Source of the DNA: Aphelidium insulamus
Taxonomy: Eukaryota; Aphelidiomycota; Aphelidea; Aphelidiaceae
Direction of reading: 5' to 3'
DNA: 64,000 nt
Assembly (NCBI GenBank): GCA_036784855.1
Contig: JAZDSV010000013.1
Coordinates: 278,338 to 342,337 of the forward strand
Shown: positions 15,953 to 64,000 of the stretch, one piece after another
How positions within the stretch are numbered: position 1 is the first letter of the stretch
Layout of the letters: each line of letters begins with the position of its first letter
Translations under genes and position numbers: made by a program
Notes under the pieces: generated by a model
What the model saw: only the letters and a program-made list of their open reading frames with translations
What the model was told of the DNA's origin: nothing
Database searches by the model: none

Positions 15953-18900
15953 CTATTTATTTAGTAAGGGGATTTTTACTTTTCTTGCGCGAAGGAATTC
16001 GGCTTCTCGTAGAGATTCCACGGTGACATCCACTCCAGCCGCCGCATCATTCGGATCTTCACAGAGCGGAAAACAGCGCCAACGGCACAGGTCGTTGTAC
16101 ACCTGCCGCGGGTCATCTTTCTCACTGGTACAAAATCTTTTCAACGTGTCGGGAACAGGATCGGGCAGTGATTGCAGGAATGGATATACGCTGACATCGA
16201 GACCATTGAGTCTGTACGCCGCTTGATACGGAAAATCCGGGCAATCATCTGGCAGTGGATCGCTAGGCGGCTCCTCCACGGCCCCAACCTGCGCCGTCGG
16301 CGGACCGTCAACTGGGGATTCCGTAACTTTCTCCGTCGGCGGGTCATCAATTGAGGATACCGCAACTTGCACCGTTGGCGGATCATCAACTGGGGACTCT
16401 GCACCTGGTTTCTGGCCATGCGTTCCGGTACCGGTGGCCGCTTTCTTTGCTTCTCCTTTGATTTTTTTGACTTTTTTTCTGGTTGGTAGACGTGAAACGA
16501 AGAAATTCGACTTCTCGCCCAGTTGTTGATACAAAGTCATATATGGAACGTTGACAGTATCAACAAGACCACATTCGGATGCTGATGCAGAATATCGACC
16601 ATTGTGCCAATCGGAATCCTTCGACCTGTTTTTTGTCTGGATAATAATAGCCGACATTCGTTTATCTGCCATGAGCACCGGTATGATAAAATCGATGCCC
16701 TTGTGGTTCTCTTTGCACATTATTGCTGCACCGCGGCGGAAGAACAAGGGTAAGGAGGAAAGCTTCACCGACCAATTCGCACGAATGATATGGGTAAAGA
16801 ACACATGACCGTTCATGAAAAGGTTTCGAAGTTCTATCTGGTCCGCCAAGCCGTGACACCAACTGTCGTATTCATCAGAAAACCGCCGTTGGCCCAAATC
16901 GAACCCAATGAATGTCTGAAGAAAGAATGACACGCTATGCGACATGTATATAAGATTACAAAGTATCCAATATTACTGAGCAAACCTACCGCACAGGAGT
17001 GCCAAATGGCAAATATGGCACGTCCATCCTAACCAGTGTACGTTTGCCTTTTGGTTTCCCACTTTCGCTTTTTTCCGTCAAAAAGCACTGATCCCATGCA
17101 AGTGTTAATAAAATTTTCGCCACTAACTCTCCACGATTTCCAGTAGTAACCAATCCTGCAAAATAATATAGGATTACTAATCCTGATTATTGAACCAACA
17201 ATGAACAAACCCGAAGAATACGCTTCCAGCAGGCCTGAAAACATTGCGATCATGCAGGGAATACCAGTATCTGAATGTTTCCCATGCCATAATACCGCTG
17301 TAGCCATAGCAAGAATAGGCTCTGAAGGATATTTACACTGCACCATCATGCGATCCTCCGATATTTTTTCACAAATCGCCATATGGTTCGATACTAACTC
17401 TGATGCCACATGAGATCGTACATTGATATGGATTCCAAGACGGCAGTCCAAAAGAGCCAACTTAGTTTCCACCGGCCAATTAAAACTATCGAGCTTTCTC
17501 GGACTTTCTCCCAATATCTTACGACAGGCAACACGGATCAAATGCTTCATGTCATCAGCGCAAAGAGTACCGCTTACAACGGCTAAGAAAGCGGCCCAGA
17601 ACGGTCGGCCAAGCTTACATAAATCAACCGCAATGCCGAGCGGAGAGTAATCCGTGTCAATTGACTCATCGCGATCACAATAACGACCGAGCTTCTGCAG
17701 ATCGTCGAGCGTAGGACGATCTGGATCGGCCAATATATCAATCGTTGGAAGTTCGCAGTAAGGCGGGTAGAGAATCAATTTTGGTAACGAATTTCGCAGA
17801 CTCGGGTCATTATGTTCCACAGGAGAAGGAGAAAAGTTTGCTACCTTAGAGATAGTGTCCACGAATACTGAAAATATGGCGACTTTGCTTTTTTCTGCTT
17901 CAAAGTTCGGAAGTTTCTGCAAAGCGTGACGCAGAGTTCTAAAACCTGAAATGTTGTCGGACTGGTCTTTCAGCAGAGCTCGTGCTTCATCCATCACGAA
18001 CACAACCAGCGGTGTACCGTGTAGATGATCAAGTTCATCGCACGCTTTAATCGACTCGGAGAGCTTGTCAACGGCATTTCGGAGAAATGGCTTCGAGTCA
18101 AATTTATAAACCGAGATAGATTCATTCTTCAAATGAGTCACAGCGTCGTTGACAACTCGTGTGTCGAATACTTCTGCCCAGCGCTCGAAGATAGTTGGTT
18201 TATCACCAACATTTTGGCGGGAATCTTGGTTTATAAATCTCGCAAGTGTATCCAAGATGTACACCAAGTAGCGGACCCATCTGACCTCGGCCTCAGCAGA
18301 AGAAACTCCGTCGGACGGCAGAAGATATTTCAGCACTTGACTGCTAGATGCCAGAGGATATCCGGTGGATTCCGCCTCGCGGAACACCAAACGCATTAAA
18401 AAGCACTTGGATACCAACTGTTGCAATAGACGGGATTTGCCCATCATGCTGGACTGGATCATCGACAAGTACGGCGAGTGGTACTTTGCGTTATTCCAGC
18501 TCTCAGCGTAAAATTGAAGACACGATTGAAAGGTTTCCACCATGCAATCCCGATTAACATAATCCACCACGAAAGCCTTGTCAGCCTTCTCCAACTTGAG
18601 CGGTGGTTCTGGTTTTAGACGCATTTTTAGATCATTGAGCTCAAACTTTTCTCGATTCAATATTTCAATAATTTCGGGGCCATCGTGGTCAACGAGATCC
18701 TCTATCATGTCAACTGCATCACCTCGGCGTGCATCGATGCACGGCGAAGAAATGCACAAAGTCTGCAACAACGAGCTAAAAATGATTATGCGCCAGTGGT
18801 AGCCAACCAGCTGTGACGCGATTAATTTAGTCAATCGCTAATATAACGATAAAAATTAATATACGATAATATTTACCTGTGGAAATATTTCCCGCGTCAT

Positions 18901-23335: not shown

Positions 23336-25333
23336 GACAATCATCCAACAATGCACTGCTACTATCCTTGTTTATGCAATGCTCCAAATATCAAGTTGTG
23401 CGGAGTGGTGCCGTAGGGTTTCCTTGCGGCATATAAGGAGTTTGCAAAGTGGGCATCAACCCAAACGGAACGTGAAATCAAAACGCATTGCAATGACGGT
23501 GGCGGTGAATACATGTCATCAGAGTTTCGAGACTATCTTATCGATGCGGGCACCCAACTACAACAGTTGGGCACAAATGAACCACAGCAAAACGGAAAAG
23601 CTGAGCGAATGAATTGCACCATTGTGGAAATGGTTTGAGTTGGGCCAGGAGGCCTGATTTTAAGGCACCTGCACAATGGATTGACTAATAGACAAGTATC
23701 CAGTAATTATATTGGTATTTGGCCTCACTGGGCCCAGCTGCCGTGGCTGGGCCTGCAAGGTCTGTCCTGTCCCCCGGGTCAGCCCTAACTGTTCGTACAC
23801 TTCTCAACAATGCCGGTTTCCCAAAGGCGATGTGGGTGGAAGCAGTGCAAACTACTGAATACATACTTAACCGGCTGCCATCCCCACGAAACAAGATAAA
23901 GACGCCATACAAACTCATGTACCGAAAGAAACCATCGTTCAAAGCTCTCAAGGTGTATGGATGCGCGGCGTTTTTATACATACTTGAAAAAAATCGTACA
24001 AAACTCGACCAAAAGGCGGAAAGACAATGGCTTGCAGGATACGACGCACACAAAAAGGGATGGTGTTGCTACTCGCCTGAGAAACACACTATTGTGGTGA
24101 GCAGCAATGTACGATTTCATGAGTCAATTCAGTACAAGGATCGACTGGCAATTGCAACTACAAGTCAGATCAATGCCACAAGTAATGCCACGGCGCCTCC
24201 TGAACCTATTTCTGATACCACGCCCATGGATTCTAGGCCACACATCGCGGAGGACAATATGGATGAATTAGTATTGCCATTACGTTTGGAATATGTACCA
24301 GAAGCAACTGATCTACCTGAACCAGCTCAAGTACTTCGTCGTAGTGCCCGACTAAACCCAGCGGCGCCATTTGTAATTAACAACATGGCACTTTCCATGT
24401 ATAGCGTGGATCTCGAAAATGATGGCCTCAATCATATTCTATATGTCTTGCTAGGCGAAAGTGAACCATCATCATACTGCGAAGCAAGGTGTAGCCCAAA
24501 TTGGCTACTATGGAAAGCTGCCATGGAAGAAGAATACAACTCTCTGATTCAAAACGGCACTTGGGACCTTTCTGCACTGCCAAAGGGGCGAAAAGCCATC
24601 GGATGCAAATGGGTCTTCAAGATAAAGCGTGGAGCCGATGGTCGGCAAAAGACTGGGAAATTGAACAAGTGGACTTTGATACGGCCTTTCTGAACAGTGA
24701 ACTCATGGAAGAGAAAAATCAACTTGTGGCTGGTGCGTGCTGAACGGAGCAGCCATCAGCTGGGCATCCCGCAAGCAAGCCAACGTAGCGACATCAACTG
24801 CACATGCCAAATATGTTGGCCTAGGAAATGCAACCATGGAAGCAATATGGATCCGACAGCTACTCATCGAGATTGGCATGCCGGCCCCGGGCTCCACAAT
24901 ACTGTTTGGTGACAACCAAGCATCACTACAGCTCACAAAGAATCCGAAATATCACCAAAGGACGAAACATATTCTCACACAACGCCACTTCATACGTGAG
25001 CAAGTGGAAGAAAATCAACTACAAGTGATTCATGTTCCCACGGAGGAAATGATTGCAGATATATTGACGAAAAACCTAGACAAGGTGACTCACCAGAAGT
25101 TCGTGACAGCATTAGGCCTCATGGCAGAGAATGACTATGAGGCGATGACTGCTCACAAACAGGGGGAGTGTTGAAAGGAAACCGGTGGAACCGGACAAAA
25201 GTGACTAAGGTCACAGTCAATAAATCACTCTTGATACAATTATAACATGACAATCATCCAACAATGCGCTGCTACTATCCTCGTTTATGCAATGTTCCAA
25301 ATATCAAGTTGTGCGGAGTGGTGCCGTGAGGGT
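23336..25333 (+). mobile_element. Internally deleted Ty1/copia retrotransposon
   Basis: A partial 5' LTR (23336-about 23420) and the 3' LTR (starting TGTTGAAAGG at 25169 after a purine tract) share about 85 bp, at 23336-23420 and 25249-25333. Between them is integrase core from near 23425 (NDGGGEYMSSEF, QQNGKAER) and an integrase/linker frame from 23719 (ALKVYGCAAF, VSSNVRFHE). Next come the start of RT (WKAAMEEEYNSLIQNGTW, GCKWVFKIKR) and RNase H (ATSTAHAKYVGL, LFGDNQASL, DILTKNL). Gag, protease and most of RT including the catalytic YVDD are deleted, and stops interrupt integrase near 23637. The 5' LTR begins directly at the hAT target duplication. Confidence 0.85.
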
Positions 25334-41582: not shown

Positions 41583-44500
41583 ATGTCCATCAAATTCGTC
41601 GCCAACGCGAAGCCAAAAGCGGCCGCTGCAACAGGCACCGCTGCCAATGGCAGCGCTCGTGCCGGCCAGAGGGGCAGTACCGACTCTCAAAGTAGTGCTG
41701 CCGCCGTGGCTGACGCGTCTATGGATCTGTTGCGCAAGACATGGCCCGTGACGTCGGTGGCGGCTGAATTCGACCCCGCGGACCCCAATGCCGCCGTGGC
41801 CGCTCTGGATCGCCGGCTGTTGGCGCTGTGGAGCGTGGATGAGAGCAATGCCGAGGAGCTACTGCGACAATGTCACTCCATCAGGGACGTGCTGCGCGAG
41901 TGCCATGCCGCCACGCAGCACCCCGCCCTGCTTGCCGCCGCACTCACTGCTGTGGCGCTGGCCGTGGAGGGCGCTGGCAGTGGCCTGTCGCTGAACAAGT
42001 CGGCGGCAGCATCGACGCGTCGTCGTCCAGCCGCCCTGTTTCTCGCCGCGACTTTGCTGGCGGCGTTTGGCGCGCGCGTAGAGCCACTGTGCGTGCCGTG
42101 GCTCCGCGTGGCGCTTGTCGATTGTCCCGCCGACAAGCTGGCCTCGATGCGGCTGGCGGCGTGGCATTTTACGCAGCTGCTGTTCACGGCGCACGTGCAC
42201 CCGCATCAGGTGGCCCCGTATCTGCCGGCTCTCTACCAGTCGCTGGACAAGACGCGCAAGTGGCAGGTGCGAGTGGCCGGCCTGGAGGCGCTCTGCTGGC
42301 TGGTGCAGCGGGCATCGCGTGTCGTAGTGGCCGCGCACATGGAAGACATTTTGCCGCACGTGGCCGAGTGCATGGCCGACTTTAAACCGCAAGTCAAGGA
42401 CCAGGCTTTCAGCACCATGGCACGTAAATGTTATACTTTAGTTGTTACAGTATGTAATACAACGATTCTAATGTGTGTGTGCAGATGACGGTGGTGTCGG
42501 TGATCACGAACCCGGACATTAAAGAGTTGCTGCCGCAGCTGGTGCAGTGCGTGGCCGACTCTGAAAAAGTTGCCGTGACCATCAAGGCGCTGTCTGGCAC
42601 GACGTTTGTGCGCGAAATCGACTGTGCCACTCTGTCGCTGCTGGTGCCGCTGCTAGTGCGCGCACTCGCTGTCCGCTCCAACACACCCATGCTCCGCCAG
42701 TCCTCCATCATCATTGCCAACATCTGCAAACTTGTGCCGGACGCGCAGGACGTGGCCCGCTTCTTGCCGCGCCTGTTGCCTGGCCTGGAGCACATTGTCG
42801 AACTGGGCGCGGACCCCGAGCTGCGTCAAGTGACTGGCGGCACCGTGGAGATTGTCAAGCGCACCATCCAACTGGCCGCCAGCCAGGACCAGTTCAAGCA
42901 GCTGCACGTCGTGTCGGAAGCCGAGTTGGGCGAGATCTTTGGCCAAGTTTTGGCTGCCGATCAGGCTGAATCAGCTGAATCTTCTTCTTTGACCTCTTCT
43001 TCTGGTCAAACGGTGCCAAAGAGCGTGTTCCGCGCCGTACAGCAGTACTGCTGCTGGCTCACACAGACGCTGTTGACGTGCCGCGCCATCGACATTTACC
43101 ACTGGCGCAAGATTGCCGACTACATTGCAACTGTGTTACCGGGGAGCGCTAGTAGCAGCAGCAGCAGCGATGGTGACGGCGGAAAAGAGCAGCTGCAACA
43201 CCGACTTGACGCCGCCATGAAAAAGTATCGCCAGCGGGCGCTGGAGATGGCCAACATTGTTGCGGCCGACGACGAGGACGACGACAAGGATGTTTCCTGT
43301 GATTGCACCTTCAGTCTCGCATACGGCGGCATGATTCTGCTCAAGGACGCCCATTTGCATCTGCGTCGTGGCAAGTGCTACGGACTGGTTGGTCGCAATG
43401 GCTGCGGCAAGGCAAGTGATGATAATGGAAGTGTATAATACCTGCTAACATATATATACTATGGCAGACAACACTTCTTCGCGCCATTGCCAACAACCAG
43501 TTGGAGGGATTCCCGCCGCCAGAGAAGCTTAAGACCGTGTACGTGGGACACAGCAGTCAGGGCGATTTTGATGAGATGATTGTTTTGGATTTTGCGCGCC
43601 AGAAACTGCCCGCGCTATCAGTGGCGGAGCTGCAAGAGCAGTTGTTACCGTTCGGTTTTGATGATAGCCGCTGCCGAGTGTCGGTGGGCAGTCTTTCCGG
43701 CGGCTGGAAGATGAAGCTCAACCTGGCCATGGCGGTGCTGGAACGCGCCGACATTCTCTTGCTTGACGAGCCTACAAATCATCTCGACGTGACCAACATT
43801 GCCTGGCTGGAGAAGTATCTCGGTGACCAGACGTCCATCACGTCGCTGATAGTCTCGCACGACTCCAAATTCATGGACAACGTGTGCACTCACATCATTC
43901 ACTATGCCAAGCTTCAGCTAAACACCTACAAGTGCGGATTTAGCGAGTTTGTCGAGGCAAGTCAAATTATAATTTTATATGTTATTCTGTGTATTGACAA
44001 CGCCGTAGCTCATCCCTGAAGCCAAATCCTATGTCAATCATGAAAGCACCGCGAACGACTTCAAATTTCCCGATCCTGGCAATCTCGAGGGCGTGCGCAG
44101 TCGAGACAGAAAGATCTTGCGCATGCGTGACGTGGGCTTCCAGTACCCGACGGCATCAAAGCCCACCTTACGCAACATCAACTTGGCATTGTCGCTGTCC
44201 AGCCGCGTGGCAATTGTCGGTTAGTTGTATTACATTGTACTGTTTTAAAATCTTATAATTTATGATTTATAGGTCCTAACGGAGCCGGCAAGAGCACGCT
44301 GATCAAGATCCTTGTTGGAGAGTCGGAGCCGACTGCGGGGTCGATGACTCGTCATCCGTGGCTCCGCATGGCGTACATTGCCCAGCACGCCTTCCACCAT
44401 CTGGAACAGCATCTCGAGTCCACACCGAATGCCTACATTCGCTGGCGTTTTGAAAAGGGGCAAGACAAGGAAATTGCTGCAATGATCACGCGGCAGCTGA

Positions 44501-45387
44501 CGCCCGAAGAGCGTCAAGTCATGCTGCAGCACCAGATCGAGTATATCTGCGGCCGGCAAAAGGTCAAACGCACCTTCAAGTACGAAGTCAAGTTCATTGG
44601 CCGCGGCCTGAATGAGACTGTCTGGCGGATGAAGGAGGACTTGGAGGCAATGGGCCTGCAGCGTCTGTGCAAGCTATACGACGACGGCGAGGCCGCTCGT
44701 GGCGGCAACTACGACCGCGAACTCACGGTGGCCAGTGTGCAGACGCACCTGGAGGAGTTTGGACTGCCGGCCGAATTCGGCACGCACAACTCGGTCAAGG
44801 GTCTGTCGGGCGGCCAAAAGGTCAAGGTGGTGCTGGCGGCGGCAATGTGGCTCAAGCCGCAGATCTTGGTGTTGGACGAGCCGACCAATTATCTGGACAT
44901 TCAATCGCTGAATGCACTGGCGGAAGCGATTCGCCGGTTCAAAGGGGGAGTAGTGATGGTGACGCACAACACGGCATTCTACGAAAGCGTCTGCACCGAG
45001 ATATGGGAAATGTCGGATGGGACCTTGTCCTGTCTGCGCGGCAAAGCTGCCGGTGACGGAGCAGCAGATAGTGCGGCGGCAGACCCGGATGCAGTAGATG
45101 CCGGCGATGACGAGGAAGACTTACCGCCTGTGCCGTCAATGGCGTCATTGTCTGTCGGTCAGTCTGATTCCGCGGCAAATGGCACCTCTCCGTTGCCGCA
45201 AGAAGCATTCAAGCCTGCAGCGGCGCCTGCCATCGAAAAAAAGTTTGAACGGCGAAAGGAGACTCGCCGAGAGCGTCTCGCCAAAGAAAAGGTAAAACTT
45301 AAAAAGCTGCAAAAATATGGGCCCAAGGCAGATGGCACACCGTACAGTAGCGACGAGGAGGAACCCGAGCGGCACGTCCATATTTAA
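41583..45387 (+). CDS. TEF3: Translation elongation factor 3 (ABC-F type)
   Basis: Ribosome-associated ATPase needed for tRNA release from the E site during elongation in fungi and some other eukaryotes. Five exons (41583-42419, 42485-43411, 43468-43956, 44009-44219, 44273-45387; phases check) encode 1192 aa, longer than the approx. 1045 aa of yeast eEF3. HEAT repeats occupy about residues 70-400. The first ABC domain has Walker A VGRNGCGKTTLLRAIANNQL and signature LSGGWKMK with LLLDEPTNHLD. The second has VGPNGAGKSTLIKIL, the chromodomain-like insertion (about HPWLRMAYIAQHAFHHLE to KRTFKYEVKFIGRG), LSGGQKVK and LVLDEPTNYLD. The C-terminus is Lys-rich and acidic. Three of four introns need GC donors (42420, 43412, 43957). 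Confidence 0.95.
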
Positions 45388-56685: not shown

Positions 56686-57107
56686 TTTAGAGAGCTAGGC
56701 TGTAGGGCCTAAAATTTTTTTTTGAAACAGACACACAATCAATTAATAAATGGTAATTTGACGCAGTACAGTTCATCATGCAACAGTATGCTGGCACATT
56801 TGCTCCCTCTGTACCGCCATGGGACTGTCTGTGCGCATGTGCCTCTATGTGCTGCACTCACTCTTAGGTTATTTGGTGCTGGTGCTCGCTCTCTGTCTCT
56901 GTGTGGTATGCTATGTGCAATATGGCTGCATATGTAGCTCTCACTCTTAGGTAGTTGGCACTCCTTGGACTCTCTCCAGGTGTGGTTATCTGTGCATATG
57001 AGCTGTGTACTGCACTCACTCTTAGATTAGTCAGTGCTAGTGGGTCTCTCCCTCTGTGGGTACGTATTGTGCATAAATGGCTTGTTGTGCCGCACTCACG
57101 CTTAGGT
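56686..57107. repeat. Long direct repeat, copy 1
   Basis: Block of about 420 bp beginning TTTAGAGAGCTAGGCT and including GAAACAGACACACAATCAATTAATAAATGG, repeated with few mismatches 612 bp downstream. Internally built from degenerate units of about 80-90 bp around GCACTCACTCTTAGGTTAGT. It lies on the 3' side of the minus-strand LINE and may be its 3' UTR or a tandem partner. Confidence 0.8.
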
Positions 57108-57297
57108 TAGTCGGCGCTGGTGGCTCTCTCTCTCCATGTGTAGTACGTTTTATGCAGATACTGCTGGTTTTGCTATACTCCCTCTTAGATTAGTGGTTGT
57201 AGCTTTGCTGTCTCTCGGTGGTGATGCGGGTTGTATATATATTTCTGGTGCGCCGCACTCACTCTAGGTTTGTCGGCGCTGGTTTGGCTCGCTCTCC

Positions 57298-57712
57298 TTT
57301 AGAGAGCTAGGCTCTAGGGCCTAAAAATTTTTTTTGAAACAGACACACAATCAATTAATAAATGGTAATTTGACGCAGTACAGTTCATCATGCAACGGAA
57401 TGCTGGCACATCTGCTCCCTCTGTACCACCATGGGACTGTCTGTGCGCATGTGCCTTATGTGCTGCACTCACCCTTAGGTTAGTTGGTGCTGGTACTCGC
57501 TCTCTGTCTCTCTGTGGTATGCTCTGTGCACATATGACTGCATATGTAGCTCTCACTCTTAGGTAGTTGGCACTCCTTACACTCTCTCCAGGTGTGGTTA
57601 TCTGTGCATATGTGCTGTGTACTGCACTCACTCTTAGGTTAGTTAGTGCTAGTGGGTCTCTCCCTGTGTGGGTACGTATTGTGCATAAATGACTTGTTGT
57701 GCTGCACTCACG
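57298..57712. repeat. Long direct repeat, copy 2
   Basis: Second copy of the block at 56686-57107, in the same orientation. It ends about 70 bp from the LINE ORF2 stop. The spacer 57108-57297 contains more of the same GCACTCACTCTTAGGTTAG-type units. Confidence 0.8.
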
Positions 57713-57781
57713 CTTCGGGGTTAGGCTTTACGGTAGGCTTTATTTAGCTAGCTGGTGTGGTCGGAGGCCGCCGGGGAGGCC

Positions 57782-60700
57782 TCAGGCGCGAGAGATTTCA
57801 AGAAAGGCGCGTTGAAACACTTGGAAGTCGCCGTGATTGAGCAGTGAATCAAAGATCGTCAAGTTCTCCCCGTCAAATTCACGCTGATCGGCGTCGTAGC
57901 GGTTCCAGTACTGTTCAGGCACCACGGGTGGCGCCAGCTGGTTGTGATGGCAGTGCGCGCGGTTGAAGCGGGTGGCGCACCGGCGGCAGTGTGCAAAGTG
58001 GGCATTGCGTCGCCATGCGATGGCGGTGCGGCGCGTGGTGCGGTCGGCAATGTTGAGCACGCGGTCCATTCCGGCGGGCGTGCGGCTTGCGCGAGAGATG
58101 TACGTCGTCAGCTTGCCATAGGCGCCATTGACAAATGAGTCGTAGCGGCGACGGCGCACAAACGTCTTCAGCGTGGGCGGCGGCTCATTGTTGGCGTCGG
58201 CGGCGTGCGCACCGGCAGTGTAGGCGTGCACAACCGGGTGACGGAGGAGCGGCAGCATGAGCGACTTGGCGTAGCGCACCCGGTTCCGAAGCACCGAGGT
58301 ACGTTGCAGGCTTGTTGGAGTGTATGGCGGCGACTCGTCGATGTGTGTGTAGACCATCGCGGCGAGATCGGAGAGCCGGTCGTCCGGCGCGGCAATGGCG
58401 GCCATCGAGGCGACGCACGAGCGGAGGTTGGCGACGTGGCGCAGTTGCGAGCCAAAGACCCAGCGTAGCGCGCGCATGTGCAGTGCTTCGAACCGGCCCT
58501 TGATGGCCAGCACGGTTTTGTGTTTCGCGCCGCGCGTCTCGCAGAACGACCAGACGAGCGGCGCAATGTACTCGACGATGGGTCGGACAAAGGCGCGGTA
58601 GACCGCCAGTCGGACCGACGGTCGCCACGCTTCCGAAGTGTCGGACACCGCGGTCAGCAGAGAGTTGGCGCGCGCAAAGGTACGTGCCGTGAATGCATCA
58701 AAGTCGATGCCGTGGGCCGTGTTCTCCACGCCCAGATACTTGTAACTGTCAATAAACTCGAGCGTTGCGCCGCCGAGTTGATACTGAATAGATTGCTTGT
58801 CTTGCTGAGAATCCAGTAAACCAGGGGCCGAAGCCCCCGTCAGACTCGAGGGTGCGGTACTGCCACCCGGAACTCTTGTAACCGCCTTGGCGGCGCCCCG
58901 TACCGAACTGTTTTTGGTCACGCACTCCGTCTGACTGGAGTTTGCGACGTTGCTTTTTGGGGCGATCTCAATCTCTTTTCTCATATCTTTGCCAGCAGGT
59001 ACTCCGTTGTCCCCGTGGACAGGCCGGCGTACTGCAGTCGCATCAGTTACATCGTCGCCAAGTGTGTCTGCGACGGAAAGGTTAGTGGGAGCAGCATGGT
59101 GCATGTCACTCCGTGGCGTTTCACTGTGAAGTGTCGCCGCTGTTGTTGTGTCAGTCGACGCCGGTTTTCCAGTTGCCAAAGTCGGCGTCTCCAATAAACT
59201 AGGGGCCGGAGCCCCCGTCAGACCAATGGGTGCGGTACAGCCACCCGGAACTCTTGTAACCGCCTTGGCGGCGCCCCGTACCGTTTTTGATCTTTTCACG
59301 CACTCCGTCTGACTGGAGCTTGTGGCGTTGCTTTCTGGGGCGATCTCAAACTCTTTTCTCTTTTTTGTGCCAGCCGATACTCCGTTGTCCCCGTGGACAG
59401 GCCGGCGTACCGCGGCTGCATCAGTTACGTCGTCGCCATGTGTGTCTGCGACGGAAAGGTTAGTTGGAGCAGCATGGTGCATGTCACTCCGTGGCGTTTC
59501 ACTGTGAAGTGTCGCCGCTGTTGTTGTGTCAGTCGACGCCGGTTTTCCAGCTGCCAAAGTCGGCGTCTCCAATAAACTAGGGGCCGGAGACCCCGTCAGA
59601 CCAATGGGTGCGGTACAGCCACCCGGAACTCTTGTAACCGCCTTGGCGGCGCCCCGTACCGTTTTTGATCTTTTCACGCACTCCGTCTGACTGGAGCTTG
59701 TGGCGTTGCTTTCTGGGGCGATCTCAAACTCTTTTCTCTTTTTTGTGCCAGCAGATACTCCGTTGTCCCCGTGGACAGGCCGGCGTACCGCGGCTGCATC
59801 AGTTACGTCGTCGCCATGTGTGTCTGCGACGGAAAGGTTAGTGGGAGCAGCATGGTGCATGTCACTCCGTGGCGTTTCACTGTGAAGTGTCGCCGCTGTT
59901 GTTGTGTCACTTGACGCCGGTTTTCCAGTTGCCAAAGTCGGCGTCTCCAATAAACTAGGGGCCGAAGCCCCCGTCAGACTCGAGGGTGCGGTACAGCCAC
60001 CCGGAACTCTTGTAACCGCCTTGGCGGCGCCCCGTACCGAACTGTTTTTGGTCACGCACTCCGTCTGACTGGAGTTTGTGACGTTGCTATTGGGGGCGAT
60101 CTCAAGCTTTTCTGTTTGCTTTTTTCCTACTGCTCCGATGATGCCGCTTTTGGCGGCGCTGACAATCATGTTGTTGGCGGCCGTCCAGGCGGTGATGGTG
60201 TCCAGGTCGCGCTGGATCTCGGCGGCGGTTGCTGTGTGGTGATATTGCAGTTTGATGTCGTCTGCAAAGAGGCGTGCGCGTGGGTGTTCCTGCGGCGACG
60301 TGCCATTCAGCGCATCGGCGAGGTCATCCACATAGATGTTCCAGAGGAATGGTGATAGGATCGAGCCCTGGAAGAGCCCCGTCCGCAGTTGGATGTCCCG
60401 CGATACAAGTTGGTTGACGACGAGACTCGTCGAACACTGTGTGAACAGCGCTTGTACCAGAGCGATAAATTTCCGTGGGGCATGCCGACCCCGGAACTTG
60501 TCCAGCAGGCGCGCAATGTCCACTCTGTCATACGCTTGTTTCAGGTCGATGAATATTTGCGCTCCGCGGTCCTGCTGCTGCTGGTCGGCGGAGGACATGA
60601 TGAGCTGGAGACAGGACTGGCGTGCCTGGAAGCCACCTTGCGCAAAATTCAACTCGACGGAGCTCCCATACACATCGGGAGACTTTGTCATGGATCGGAG

Positions 60701-62209
60701 CAGTAGTGCCTCAAACGCACGCCTAAACATGACGGTGAGTGCAATCGGTCTGAATTCAGATACTACGGTGGCATCCGGTTTTTTCGGTATTGGGTAGGTC
60801 ACCGACCGGTTCCACCTGCGAGGAGTGAGTCCAAATGCGATGCATAGCTGAAAGAGTGCTTCCAGGTGCTCGGCGAGGTCGCTGTCGCTAAGCGCCCGCA
60901 TGATACGTGTGTGTAGGCCGTCGCCACCGCAGGACTTGCCCGTGGCGTACGTGCGGAAGAACGTTGCAATCCGTTCTCGAGTGAACGAAGGGCCCACCGT
61001 CCGAGTGTACAGGTCCAGTTCAATGGTTGTCCACGCCGGGGTAAGCGGCGGTGTCACCTCCGAGCTGTATATCTGTTCGAAGAAGAGTGCCGCATCCTCG
61101 ACCGGGGATCGGTCTTCGGAGCGGCTCAGCATGCGTACGGCACCAGACGCCCGTTGGCTGCGCTTGAAAAGGCGCACGGCGTTCTGCGGCGTGATAGTGT
61201 CGGCCTGCTCCGTCAGAAAGTCCACCGAGTGGTCCGCGCGGAGTTTCGCCTCGCTAACGTTGTACTGGCCAATTACCGCTGCCGTGGTGTCAGCGATGGT
61301 GTCGCATATAGCCTGGTCGAGGCGGTCGAGGGCCCCTTGCAGTGTCTGAGTCAGGACCGCGTCGCCGATACCGCCCTCCATCGCTTCGATGAAGTACGTA
61401 TCTGCTTCCGCCTTTGCCCGTTGTACTGCTGCTGCGTTGGCGTTGTACCGAGCCCGCATACACGCCACGAGAACCGGGTCGTCCAGGTGCTTGAGGTAGT
61501 AGCGGTTCGTTGTAGTGGCCTGCACGCTGTTGTTAGTGTTACCTGTCACCCTGCCTGCCAAGCATCCAATGCGGAGCATCATCAGCTGGTGGTGGGGTGT
61601 GTCCAACTGCGGAACCGGCAGATACTGCCAGTCCACAACTGTCCCGTCCCGGCCGAAGACGTGGTCGACATTGGTATGGCCAATACTGGGGCGCAGATGC
61701 GCCATTTGCCAGCGTTGCGTCCATCTTCCAATAGCCAGCCTCCGTTCCGGTACGGTTGCCGTGTTGTTCCATTCCACTCCATAACGTGCGTTGATGTCGC
61801 CCACGATCACATCTGGCAGCTCCTGCCGCCAGTGGTCCAGGTCATTGTTGATTTCTTCGGCTGTTAGTGCCGGCGGCCAGTACACTGCCAACACCCGGAC
61901 TCCATCGACCACGGCCAACATGCTGTGGACCGTAGACTTGGGTTTTCCGGTGATGCGTGCCTGTACCTCCGGTTTAGCCAGTAGCGCCAGTCCGCCCTTG
62001 CCTCGGCTGCCGCTGCCGCCAGGGTTCGGGCTTGTGGCTACAAAGTACGGATGCTGAACCAGTGCTTGATTGTCGTCGATGAACCAGTGTTCCGCAACAA
62101 ACACAAAGTCTGCCTTGGTAAACAAGTCCATCTCGGTCATTCGGTTGTACTTGAACCGGGCCATCCCGGTTACGTTGACGTATGCCACTACAGAGGTCTC
62201 GGCGTTCAT
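57782..62209 (-). CDS. LINE ORF2: APE endonuclease and reverse transcriptase
   Basis: Intact frame of 1475 codons from ATG 62209 (open 18 bp further upstream from a GTG). The endonuclease has VAEHWF (Glu), GKGGLALLAK, VIVGDINARYG (Asp-x-Asn), NVDHVFG and the terminal PHHQLM in place of SDH. The reverse transcriptase has FRPIALT, AQGGFQARQSCLQLI, FIDLKQAYDRVD, TGLFQGSILSPFLWNIYVDD and the catalytic FADDIKL. An array of repeats of about 440 aa interrupts the frame between the NMIVSAAKSG segment and LEFIDSYKYLG of the thumb. A C-terminal HCRRCATRFNRAHCHH knuckle follows. No RNase H domain was recognised. Whether the protein is active with the insertion is unknown. Confidence 0.9.
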   Translation of the reverse strand: MNAETSVVAYVNVTGMARFKYNRMTEMDLFTKADFVFVAEHWFIDDNQALVQHPYFVATSPNPGGSGSRGKGGLALLAKPEVQARITGKPKSTVHSMLAVVDGVRVLAVYWPPALTAEEINNDLDHWRQELPDVIVGDINARYGVEWNNTATVPERRLAIGRWTQRWQMAHLRPSIGHTNVDHVFGRDGTVVDWQYLPVPQLDTPHHQLMMLRIGCLAGRVTGNTNNSVQATTTNRYYLKHLDDPVLVACMRARYNANAAAVQRAKAEADTYFIEAMEGGIGDAVLTQTLQGALDRLDQAICDTIADTTAAVIGQYNVSEAKLRADHSVDFLTEQADTITPQNAVRLFKRSQRASGAVRMLSRSEDRSPVEDAALFFEQIYSSEVTPPLTPAWTTIELDLYTRTVGPSFTRERIATFFRTYATGKSCGGDGLHTRIMRALSDSDLAEHLEALFQLCIAFGLTPRRWNRSVTYPIPKKPDATVVSEFRPIALTVMFRRAFEALLLRSMTKSPDVYGSSVELNFAQGGFQARQSCLQLIMSSADQQQQDRGAQIFIDLKQAYDRVDIARLLDKFRGRHAPRKFIALVQALFTQCSTSLVVNQLVSRDIQLRTGLFQGSILSPFLWNIYVDDLADALNGTSPQEHPRARLFADDIKLQYHHTATAAEIQRDLDTITAWTAANNMIVSAAKSGIIGAVGKKQTEKLEIAPNSNVTNSSQTECVTKNSSVRGAAKAVTRVPGGCTAPSSLTGASAPSLLETPTLATGKPASSDTTTAATLHSETPRSDMHHAAPTNLSVADTHGDDVTDAAAVRRPVHGDNGVSAGTKKRKEFEIAPESNATSSSQTECVKRSKTVRGAAKAVTRVPGGCTAPIGLTGSPAPSLLETPTLAAGKPASTDTTTAATLHSETPRSDMHHAAPTNLSVADTHGDDVTDAAAVRRPVHGDNGVSAGTKKRKEFEIAPESNATSSSQTECVKRSKTVRGAAKAVTRVPGGCTAPIGLTGAPAPSLLETPTLATGKPASTDTTTAATLHSETPRSDMHHAAPTNLSVADTLGDDVTDATAVRRPVHGDNGVPAGKDMRKEIEIAPKSNVANSSQTECVTKNSSVRGAAKAVTRVPGGSTAPSSLTGASAPGLLDSQQDKQSIQYQLGGATLEFIDSYKYLGVENTAHGIDFDAFTARTFARANSLLTAVSDTSEAWRPSVRLAVYRAFVRPIVEYIAPLVWSFCETRGAKHKTVLAIKGRFEALHMRALRWVFGSQLRHVANLRSCVASMAAIAAPDDRLSDLAAMVYTHIDESPPYTPTSLQRTSVLRNRVRYAKSLMLPLLRHPVVHAYTAGAHAADANNEPPPTLKTFVRRRRYDSFVNGAYGKLTTYISRASRTPAGMDRVLNIADRTTRRTAIAWRRNAHFAHCRRCATRFNRAHCHHNQLAPPVVPEQYWNRYDADQREFDGENLTIFDSLLNHGDFQVFQRAFLEISRA
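58813..60115 (-). repeat. 378-bp in-frame tandem repeat array inside LINE ORF2
   Basis: Three complete 378-bp units start at 58813, 59191 and 59569, plus a partial unit from 59947 to about 60115. The period was measured from the recurring CCAATAAACTAGGGGCC. 378 is divisible by three, so each unit encodes 126 residues in frame (Thr/Ala/Ser-rich, with KKRKEFEIAPESN, RGAAKAVTRVPGG and DTTTAATLHSETPRSDMHH). Inner junctions are nearly identical, whereas the two outer edges share variants with each other. Confidence 0.95.
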
Positions 62210-62278
62210 GGCGCCGATATTGTCCACTTGCTTCTTCAGTCCGTGTGTTCGCCCTTCGGCGACTCTGTAGCTCTTCTT

Positions 62279-63918
62279 TTAAGGTGCGGCCACCGAGCTT
62301 CCGGCGCTCGCGACACCTTTGTCTTCTGCTGCTTCTTCCTTGTTTGTCGGCGGCGCCGATTGCTTGTTCATTAGCTGCGCCGCTTGTTCATTTTCGGTCC
62401 GTTTGTCTGTTCCCTGCTGCGTCGGCGCCTGCGTTGTGTCTGTCCACTCTTCCAGACTGGACAGCAGTGCGTCGATACCATCCATTTGAGTCGGCGGTGA
62501 AGGGGTGACCTCCATTGCGTCTTCTTTGGTGTCAGTTTTGTCAGTGGCAGGGGCGGCGGTTGCGGTGCCAGCGTCAGCCACCGGAGTGGCCTCTACAGTC
62601 ACCTGGGTGCGTTCCGCCACCCTTGGGGTGCCTACCGTTCGGTTTGAGGGCCCTGGTGGCTCGGGCCATTGCCAACCGTCTGGGCTTCCCGTTGGTAGCT
62701 TCATGGGGGCAAAATATTCCCCTGGCATGTCCCTTTCCTCATTTACCATTCTCAGCTGTTCGAGCGCTGCTTGGGCGTTTACGTGATACTCGCCCAAGTC
62801 GCCGTCATCGGCGAAGACGACCTCGCGGATCCATCGAGCGTAGAACTCTGCTGCATTGTTACTTAGTGCTATTGCGGGATTGTGAGACCCGCGAGCGATG
62901 GCGCCAATGGCGCGCGTGGCAAAGGCCTTACGCTTTTCTCTCCACAGGCGATGGGTGATTCCGTTGGGAGCATCGCTTGGACGGCTACAAGCAATGCCGA
63001 CGCCGGGTCCGTCCCTTTGATGGTCTGGACGCCTTGTTCAGCCATGGCCGTGATCTTTTCTTGAACTCTCTCAGTGTACTGCGCCGCTAGCAAGAGCTCC
63101 GCCGTTGTTTGAGAGATCCACTCCACATTTGCAATTGCCATTGGCGGGACGTTGGTTCCGTCAGCGAGAAGTCGCCTGACCTTACCTGGCTGCGTGCGTG
63201 TGAAACCTGTGACGTACAGTCGGCGTAAGCCGAGGTCGTCCTCAATTTTCTTTGTTGTGCTAAAGTCCGGCGGAGGGGAGCAACCACATCAGGTAGTTCC
63301 GGCAGGGCGGCCCTACGAGTTGGCGCGACTGGGCGTCGCGGGGCTCCAACGCGCGGGCGACCTTGCTTTAGTGCGTCCACGGACTGGGTGATGAGCGTCT
63401 CAACTGTTTGTCCTCGCCCTTCGGCGTGGACAGCAAGCTCACTGGCTTGAGTCTGGAAAGCGTTGTCGCTAGTGTTGGGTCGGCGACCATTCCATCGCTT
63501 GCAGAATCGGAATAGGTCGTCCACCTCAAGTGGGCAGCAGGCGCTGCTGTCTGTTTCGAGTAATTGCAGGAGCCATTTGGCAAAAAAGCCACAGTGCACC
63601 TGGTGTACGCTCGTTGGTGATGATCTTCTCAGCCCGCTCAATAAAGCGTTTGCGGGCCGCAGCCTTGACTTCATCGCTGCCGGGTGCTGTGGTTACGTCG
63701 AGTGCTTGGATGCGGATCTTACGACCCAGTCGCGTGGCTACAGACCCGGACAAGACGGCGAGTGCTTCTTCACGAAGTAAGAGCTCTGCTGTTGACTTCC
63801 CTATGAAGGAGACGTTAAGGATTGCAGTGGGCGCTAGTCCCAAGCAGCGCAGGTGTTCCTTCAGCTCGCGAATTGGCATCCGCCCTATGCCTGTGAGGTA
63901 GACCAGGCGGCATTGCAT
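62279..63918 (-). pseudogene. LINE ORF1, frameshifted
   Basis: The Gag-like ORF1 is split over four frames. The frame beginning near 63918 (LVYLTGIGRMPIRELKEHLR, ILNVSFIGKSTAELLL) continues in another frame after a T6 run near 63583 (FFAKWLLQLLETD). It shifts again near 63265 (LRRLYVTGFTRTQPGKVRRLL, IANVEWISQTTAELLL) and near 62960 (WREKRKAFATRAIGAIA), ending in a Thr/Pro-rich frame at 62279. The motif LYxTGxxRxxxxKxxxxL...xNVxxIxxxTAELLL occurs twice, a duplicated domain typical of fungal LINE ORF1. At least three indels suggest a dead ORF1; sequencing errors are an alternative. Confidence 0.75.
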
Positions 63919-64000
63919 TTCGATTTCAATGTCTGCGGTAACAGAGCGTCTGAGCGGAGGCTCGGCGCGGTAGAGGAGCTCACGGAGTGCGCTCGCCTTT

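Follow-up and report, generated by a model that had tools for sequence, protein, structure and literature searches.

A length-polymorphic tandem array within the reverse transcriptase core of a LINE from Aphelidium insulamus

A LINE ORF2 with an array between RT motifs D and E

The window, that is, the whole stretch of 64,000 nucleotides analysed, is the end of contig C32 (G000:C32:278338-342337) in an assembly of 17.95 Mb and 169 contigs. It contains a LINE and its downstream flank, with these features:

56690..57718, minus strand: satellite-like downstream flank with CTAACCTAAG motifs, repeated on other contigs (sequence and genome comparison)
57719..57781, minus strand: 3' UTR, common to copies, ending AATAAAGCCTACCGTAAAGCCTAAC (copy comparison)
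57782..62209, minus strand: LINE ORF2, 1475 aa from the ATG, with an EN-like N-terminus, RT, and a thumb/C-terminal region with a CxxC...H-rich end
58730..58738, minus strand: motif E 'YLG', where the RT fold resumes (ORF2 protein alignment)
60137..60790, minus strand: reverse transcriptase domain, Pfam RVT_1 (residues 480-697, E=4.6e-19)
62279..64000, minus strand: ORF1 region, upstream in the element, split over frames in the window copy (ORF list, copies)

ORF2 is free of stops over the 1475 codons of the original prediction and also from an upstream GTG (57782-62227, minus strand, 1481 aa). The RVT_1 domain, together with the best solved relatives by sequence and fold, R2 (R2Tg, 9dou) and human L1 ORF2p (8sxt), identifies the element as a non-LTR retrotransposon (LINE). 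Its ends are LINE-like: the end of the 3' UTR is common to six copies, and the proximal copy on contig C113 is 5'-truncated inside the array described below. A possible AP-type endonuclease in ORF2 scored below the cut-off of its own model (PF14529, E=0.013), and PF03372 is carried by two ORF2 relatives, P0002 and P0012. An Rfam scan of the window gave no match. The ORF1 region of the window copy shows a frame shift near a T run and other shifts elsewhere (62279-64000); on C33 and C108 the same region has longer single-frame stretches. The repeat-rich flank bearing CTAACCTAAG is also found on C26, C99, C112, C113, C119, C139 and C167, in tandem on some of them. Elsewhere in the window, we noted by eye an eEF3-like ORF set (approximately 41583-45387) and a Copia-like polyprotein fragment (23719-24693). 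The eEF3-like ORFs and the presence of an Umbelopsis protein among the ORF2 relatives suggest that the host is an early-diverging fungus. A 39-bp repeat present 2.9 times (16285-16396) lies in frame in an ORF at 15953-16945 (minus strand) and encodes a PPT-containing protein repeat.

Within ORF2, TRF detected a 378-bp repeat present 3.4 times at 58812-60105 (93% matches, score 2202), which agrees with the three units and one partial unit reported earlier. A unit consists of a 160-bp core and a 218-bp spacer, and the array has the form core-(spacer-core)n:

59726..60103, minus strand: unit 1, 378 bp, first-type core, KKRK at its end (TRF and alignment)
59348..59725, minus strand: unit 2, 378 bp, internal-type core with VKRSK, KKRK at its end (TRF and alignment)
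58970..59347, minus strand: unit 3, 378 bp, internal-type core with VKRSK (TRF and alignment)
58811..58969, minus strand: partial unit, last-type core of about 160 bp, adjoining motif E (alignment)
58799..60112, minus strand: predicted disordered insert, residues 706-1143 (pLDDT mostly below 35, no secondary structure in the model)

The array sits in frame exactly between two RT motifs, as had been proposed. It separates the motif D lysine, K693, from the motif E YLG at 1164-1166 (GTG numbering) by 470 residues. The 'SYKYLG' sequence that had been assigned to the thumb does resume the RT after the array, but we take it to be motif E, the primer grip, which lies at the palm-thumb border rather than in the thumb itself. 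Similarly, the KKRK and VKRSK patches are present as described (KKRK ends units 1 and 2, and VKRSK lies in cores 2 and 3), but not in every unit. In the frame of ORF2 none of the 431 codons of the array is a stop, as against 7-22 stops in each of the five other frames, and base-shuffled versions of unit 2 had an open frame in 38 of 5000 cases. Serine, threonine, alanine, glycine and proline make up 53% of the insert. AlphaFold2 returned a confident LINE-type RT core on either side and no structure for the insert itself. Thus, the insert is predicted to be disordered beside an RT core that is intact on both sides, and the array as a whole is probably disordered. Relative to ORF2 proteins of the R2 and L1 type (9dou, 8sxt), the element would carry a disordered addition of about 440 residues from motif D to motif E.

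Two other possible natures of the repeat were considered and rejected. RNA structure as the purpose of the array found no support in the folding of unit 2 (378 nt; z = -1.02, with 14 of 100 shuffles folding as well); the whole array was also folded as RNA, outside the shuffle comparison. Nor does the unit behave like a satellite dispersed over the genome: a search of the assembly with a single unit yielded 35 matches among the best candidates scored, all on contigs with copies of the element.

Array length among genomic copies and the insert of a distant relative

We compared 18 genomic stretches of the element:

C32 (window copy): 3 full units, both junctions
C113 distal: 3 full units, both junctions
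C127: 2 full units, one internally deleted, first core a first/internal hybrid, both junctions
C136a: 1 full unit, core with small insertions, both junctions
C157b: 1 full unit, both junctions
C141: 1 full unit, both junctions
C108: 0 full units, both junctions
C114: 0 full units, both junctions
C113 proximal: 5'-truncated inside the array, one full unit and 244 bp of another
C136b, C33: RT deletion in common, thumb missing
C157a, C106, C134, C94, C150: deletion in common, from core to C-terminal region
C117: diverged, decayed copy
C98: RT fragment

The array is not private to the window copy, and its length differs between copies, from zero to three full units. Both junctions of the array are kept in 8 of the 18 stretches (3, 3, 2, 1, 1, 1, 0 and 0 full units), and all eight retain at least part of the 160-bp core, none being insert-free. 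An uninterrupted ORF2 is found in the window copy only. Over 4443 aligned nt the distal C113 copy matches it at 99.35% identity, and it has three frame-breaking indels and one in-frame stop. By eye, C157a, C134, C106 and C150, but not C94, have the same downstream block (L018, L019, L021, L026) besides their common internal deletion, suggesting segmental duplication.

These data also bear on whether the window array could be an assembly artefact or an accident confined to one dead copy. The contig, and with it the window, stops inside the element, and the end of C108 falls at nearly the same element position as that of C32, as repeat-driven assembly breaks would. However, three units are also present in a C113 copy whose 3' flank differs, one or two units occur in further copies, and the insert-bearing relative P0001 (see below) comes from another data set. 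We regard this explanation as most improbable.

Units in the same position of C32 and the distal C113 copy are 99.2, 98.9 and 97.9% identical, as compared with 91.3-95.8% among the units within C32 and 92.3-95.2% within C113 distal. Units thus vary more within an element than between the two at the same position, which speaks against a very recent expansion of one copy, one of the two accounts first offered for the open frame. The last cores of the two copies are just 93.7% identical, because that of C113 is a mosaic. By eye, in the alignment, most copies have bases that are diagnostic of the first, internal or last position of a core, and several cores are mosaics; in the zero-unit copies C108 and C114 the switch from first-type to last-type core falls at different points, and a zero-unit ancestor is possible for one of the two. 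The pattern of unit identity is compatible with unequal exchange or template jumping that acted repeatedly on an array predating the C32 and distal C113 copies. Each of the six copies with a kept 3' end has a downstream flank of its own, and their unit numbers differ; therefore array-bearing templates were probably inserted more than once, the alternative being gene conversion.

The stretch between motifs D and E otherwise varies little in the relatives compared. Over 24 of the 57 ORF2 proteins found (those in the alignment), the motif D lysine and YLG are 24-40 residues apart (median 27) in 22 relatives, and a large insert occurs only in the window ORF2 and in P0001. The description of the architecture as unusual is thus borne out among these proteins. 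The ORF2 of a LINE from Umbelopsis ramanniana (P0012) and the metagenomic proteins P0002-P0017 have the same layout as the window ORF2 but, unlike it, only 24-31 residues from K to YLG and no insert. By eye, ordinary linkers were also seen in P0046, which has no insert, and in two further LINE families that the genome contains (L043 and L044, on C45 and C1). In P0044, about 70 extra residues lie between RT motifs B and C, another RT-core insert (by eye). The relative searches set a minimum length of 0.55 of the query, here about 650-815 residues, so inserts with a stop would be missed and open inserts favoured. A search with the thumb/C-terminal region returned only P0001 and P0057, the latter without an insert by eye, and a scan of viral contigs for insert-bearing relatives found none. 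None of the literature titles and abstract openings surveyed describes a LINE whose RT harbours an array of repeats or an insert.

P0001, a single metagenomic LINE ORF2 protein from a different data set (source jgi, on a contig of 4756 bp), is the nearest outside relative found (60% identical in RT). It has 291 residues between the motif D lysine and YLG, with an insert of 264 residues at the same point as the array. Like the array, this insert bears repeats, and it is predicted to be disordered between the flanks of a confident RT core (AlphaFold2); it is shorter and its repeat is another one, of 61 residues, recurring at a spacing of about 98 residues (score 235, as compared with at most 73 in shuffles). 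Serine, threonine, alanine, glycine and proline account for 44% of it and ILMFVWY for 16%. No significant sequence similarity links the two inserts: comparison of one unit plus one core with the P0001 insert gave a score of 50, reached by 359 of 1000 shuffles. Either an ancestral insert has diverged past recognition or the two inserts have separate origins.

Selection, codon usage and the intron alternative

The original prediction took the open frame of the array as an argument for selection. We called changes in the copies against the majority row, as shared when present in at least two copies and otherwise as private. Stretches that matched at fewer than 22 of 30 bases were masked; the EN, RT and thumb counts exclude C117 and C98, and the 29 array rows took in cores of decayed copies and one of C117. 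Shared changes in EN/RT/thumb comprised 36 missense, 42 synonymous and 2 nonsense, as compared with 60, 17 and 0 in the array, where they include old differences between core types and are not all independent events. Relative to the expectation from all possible changes, the enzyme parts have a ratio of about 0.33 and the array one of 1.4 (Fisher p = 6e-5); RT taken alone also differs from the array (p = 0.003). The shared changes of the array do not differ from the neutral expectation (p = 0.26), and for private changes no difference was found between enzyme parts and array (p = 0.33). Pairwise comparisons of full units gave ratios of 1.17, 1.14 and 0.59, in agreement with the result for shared changes. 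About 1.3 nonsense changes are expected among the 77 shared array changes and the probability of finding none is 0.27, so that their absence is uninformative. Since the enzyme parts are constrained and no amino-acid constraint is detectable on the array, we conclude that selection on it cannot be read from the open frame. Of the adverse case envisaged at the outset, an array free of constraint and carried by this copy only, the first half holds and the second does not, as other copies have the array.

The codon usage of the array is also unlike that of the host and of the RT. The RSCU correlation is 0.17 for the array in frame, 0.58 for the array in frame +2 and 0.77 for the RT, which is itself within the reference. 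The codon score per codon is -0.11 for the array against +0.15 for the RT; over the whole array frame 0 tops all six frames, and in the 218-bp spacer alone frame +1 outscores frame 0. GC by codon position is 0.58/0.62/0.53 in the array and 0.60/0.45/0.68 in the RT, the high second-position value of the array being due to its Ser/Thr/Ala/Pro content.

Codon usage and the lack of amino-acid constraint would both suit an array removed from the mRNA as a spliceosomal intron filled with repeats (or as an in-frame 'exitron'), which would leave the RT with a normal linker:

58805..60130, minus strand: candidate intron, GTAGGA...TTCTCAG, both borders phase 0 (by eye)

Its borders read GCA|GTAGGA at 60130 and TTCTCAG|CAAG at 58805, and a branch-like CTGAC lies some 35 nt upstream of the 3' border, a pattern seen by eye that chance can meet. 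Splicing would leave 28 residues, like the relatives, but so would the removal of any in-frame insertion, and the point does not discriminate. Host genes seem to be intron-bearing; the one intron seen by eye in the window, at about 42424-42484, is however only some 61 nt long. A spliced template would lose the array, and yet the insert is missing from none of the eight two-junction copies. Moreover, the array frame is the sole stop-free one of six, and P0001 has a separate open, hydrophilic insert of 264 residues that is predicted to be disordered. No intron in a LINE is described in the literature titles and abstract openings surveyed. Taken together, an intron is the main alternative but appears unlikely to us.

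A third possibility is that the insert was selected for a function, as a flexible tether, a nuclear-localisation array or a telomere-targeting arm. Inserts at the same point in two lineages that are 60% identical in RT, alike in composition and predicted disorder, would be consistent with this, as would KKRK and VKRSK in some units. Against it, the residues of the array show no purifying selection, and zero-unit copies exist: the exact words coding for KKRK and VKRSK are missing from C108, C114 and several other copies. The insert of P0001 has no significant sequence similarity to the array. The earlier idea of a nuclear-localisation array, a weak one, thus loses ground, and selection for function in general seems to us quite unlikely.

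Contig ends, preferred interpretation and significance

All six kept 3' ends read ...AAAGCCTAAC. Past them lie mostly short CCTAA/CCCTAA-like runs, e.g. CCTAACCCTAACCTAAGG on C113; degenerate forms follow the 3' end in the window (CCCCGAAG) and on C127 (CCCCTATG), and the window copy adjoins the flank with CTAACCTAAG motifs. A copy lies within 20 kb of a contig end on 14 of 15 contigs. The 5' end faces the nearer contig end in 15 of 18 stretches, or outward on 12 of 15 contigs (one-sided p = 0.018), counts that do not take in small fragments such as the one on C107, and with the reservation that contig ends may be assembly breaks; some must be, as C32 and C108 break at nearly the same element position. 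(TTAGGG)4 had no match in the assembly, nor did CCTAACCCTAACCCTA with up to one mismatch, for which the backwards control gave three. From the CCTAA-like tracts at the 3' ends and the prevailing orientation of the 5' ends, the element may well be telomere-associated. Separately, a degenerate TTAGG/TTAGGG tract was seen about 100 bp before the contig end on C26 (19000-20200, L045); besides this tract, the pattern search matched only a LINE 3' end (C113) and a run of CCTAATG (C1).

LINEs targeted to telomeres include the MoTeR/FoTeR and SART/TRAS kinds. FoTeR of Fusarium and MoTeR of Magnaporthe are telomeric retrotransposons, fungal telomere-associated LINEs (PMC12857005, PMC7367193). FoTeR 3' ends sit on telomeric repeats, which would be the same kind of junction as in the present family. 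The FoTeR repeats are found mostly upstream of the RT ORF, and the FoTeR endonuclease is a restriction-like, C-terminal one (PMC12857005), whereas our array interrupts the RT core and ORF2 has an EN-like N-terminus.

We favour, as moderately likely, a reading in which the array would be translated and would form an intrinsically disordered insertion of variable length in the D-E loop of a recently active LINE that is often near contig ends. The 160-bp cores flanking each 218-bp spacer would permit the array to grow or shrink by unequal exchange or template jumping, and steps of 378 bp (3 x 126) would preserve the reading frame. The amino-acid sequence would not itself be selected, and a benefit, if any (spacer, tether, basic patches), would be secondary. 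The length variation among copies and the different insert of a distant relative suggest that the D-E site is free to grow, and the loop would be a tolerant site. Counting against a protein reading are the codon usage unlike that of host and RT, the borders readable as GT...AG, and the single uninterrupted ORF2 among 18 stretches. A bolder version, which we hold to be distinctly improbable, is that the D-E loop is hypervariable throughout a clade of chromosome-end LINEs. Unrelated disordered arrays would be regained and kept there, a long arm by the primer grip would alter the engagement of chromosome-end primers, and array length would tune the copies.

We conclude that this is a real and unusual LINE architecture, a probably disordered tandem array that varies in length and lies within the RT core, and that a second lineage has a counterpart of it. 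Should the intron reading be true instead, it would also be unusual for a LINE to retain, through retrotransposition, an intron of 1.3 kb full of repeats. The natural series of zero to three units, together with the insert of the second lineage, offers a test of how much disorder an RT tolerates by its primer grip, and of how tandem repeats enter and evolve in the proteins of mobile elements.
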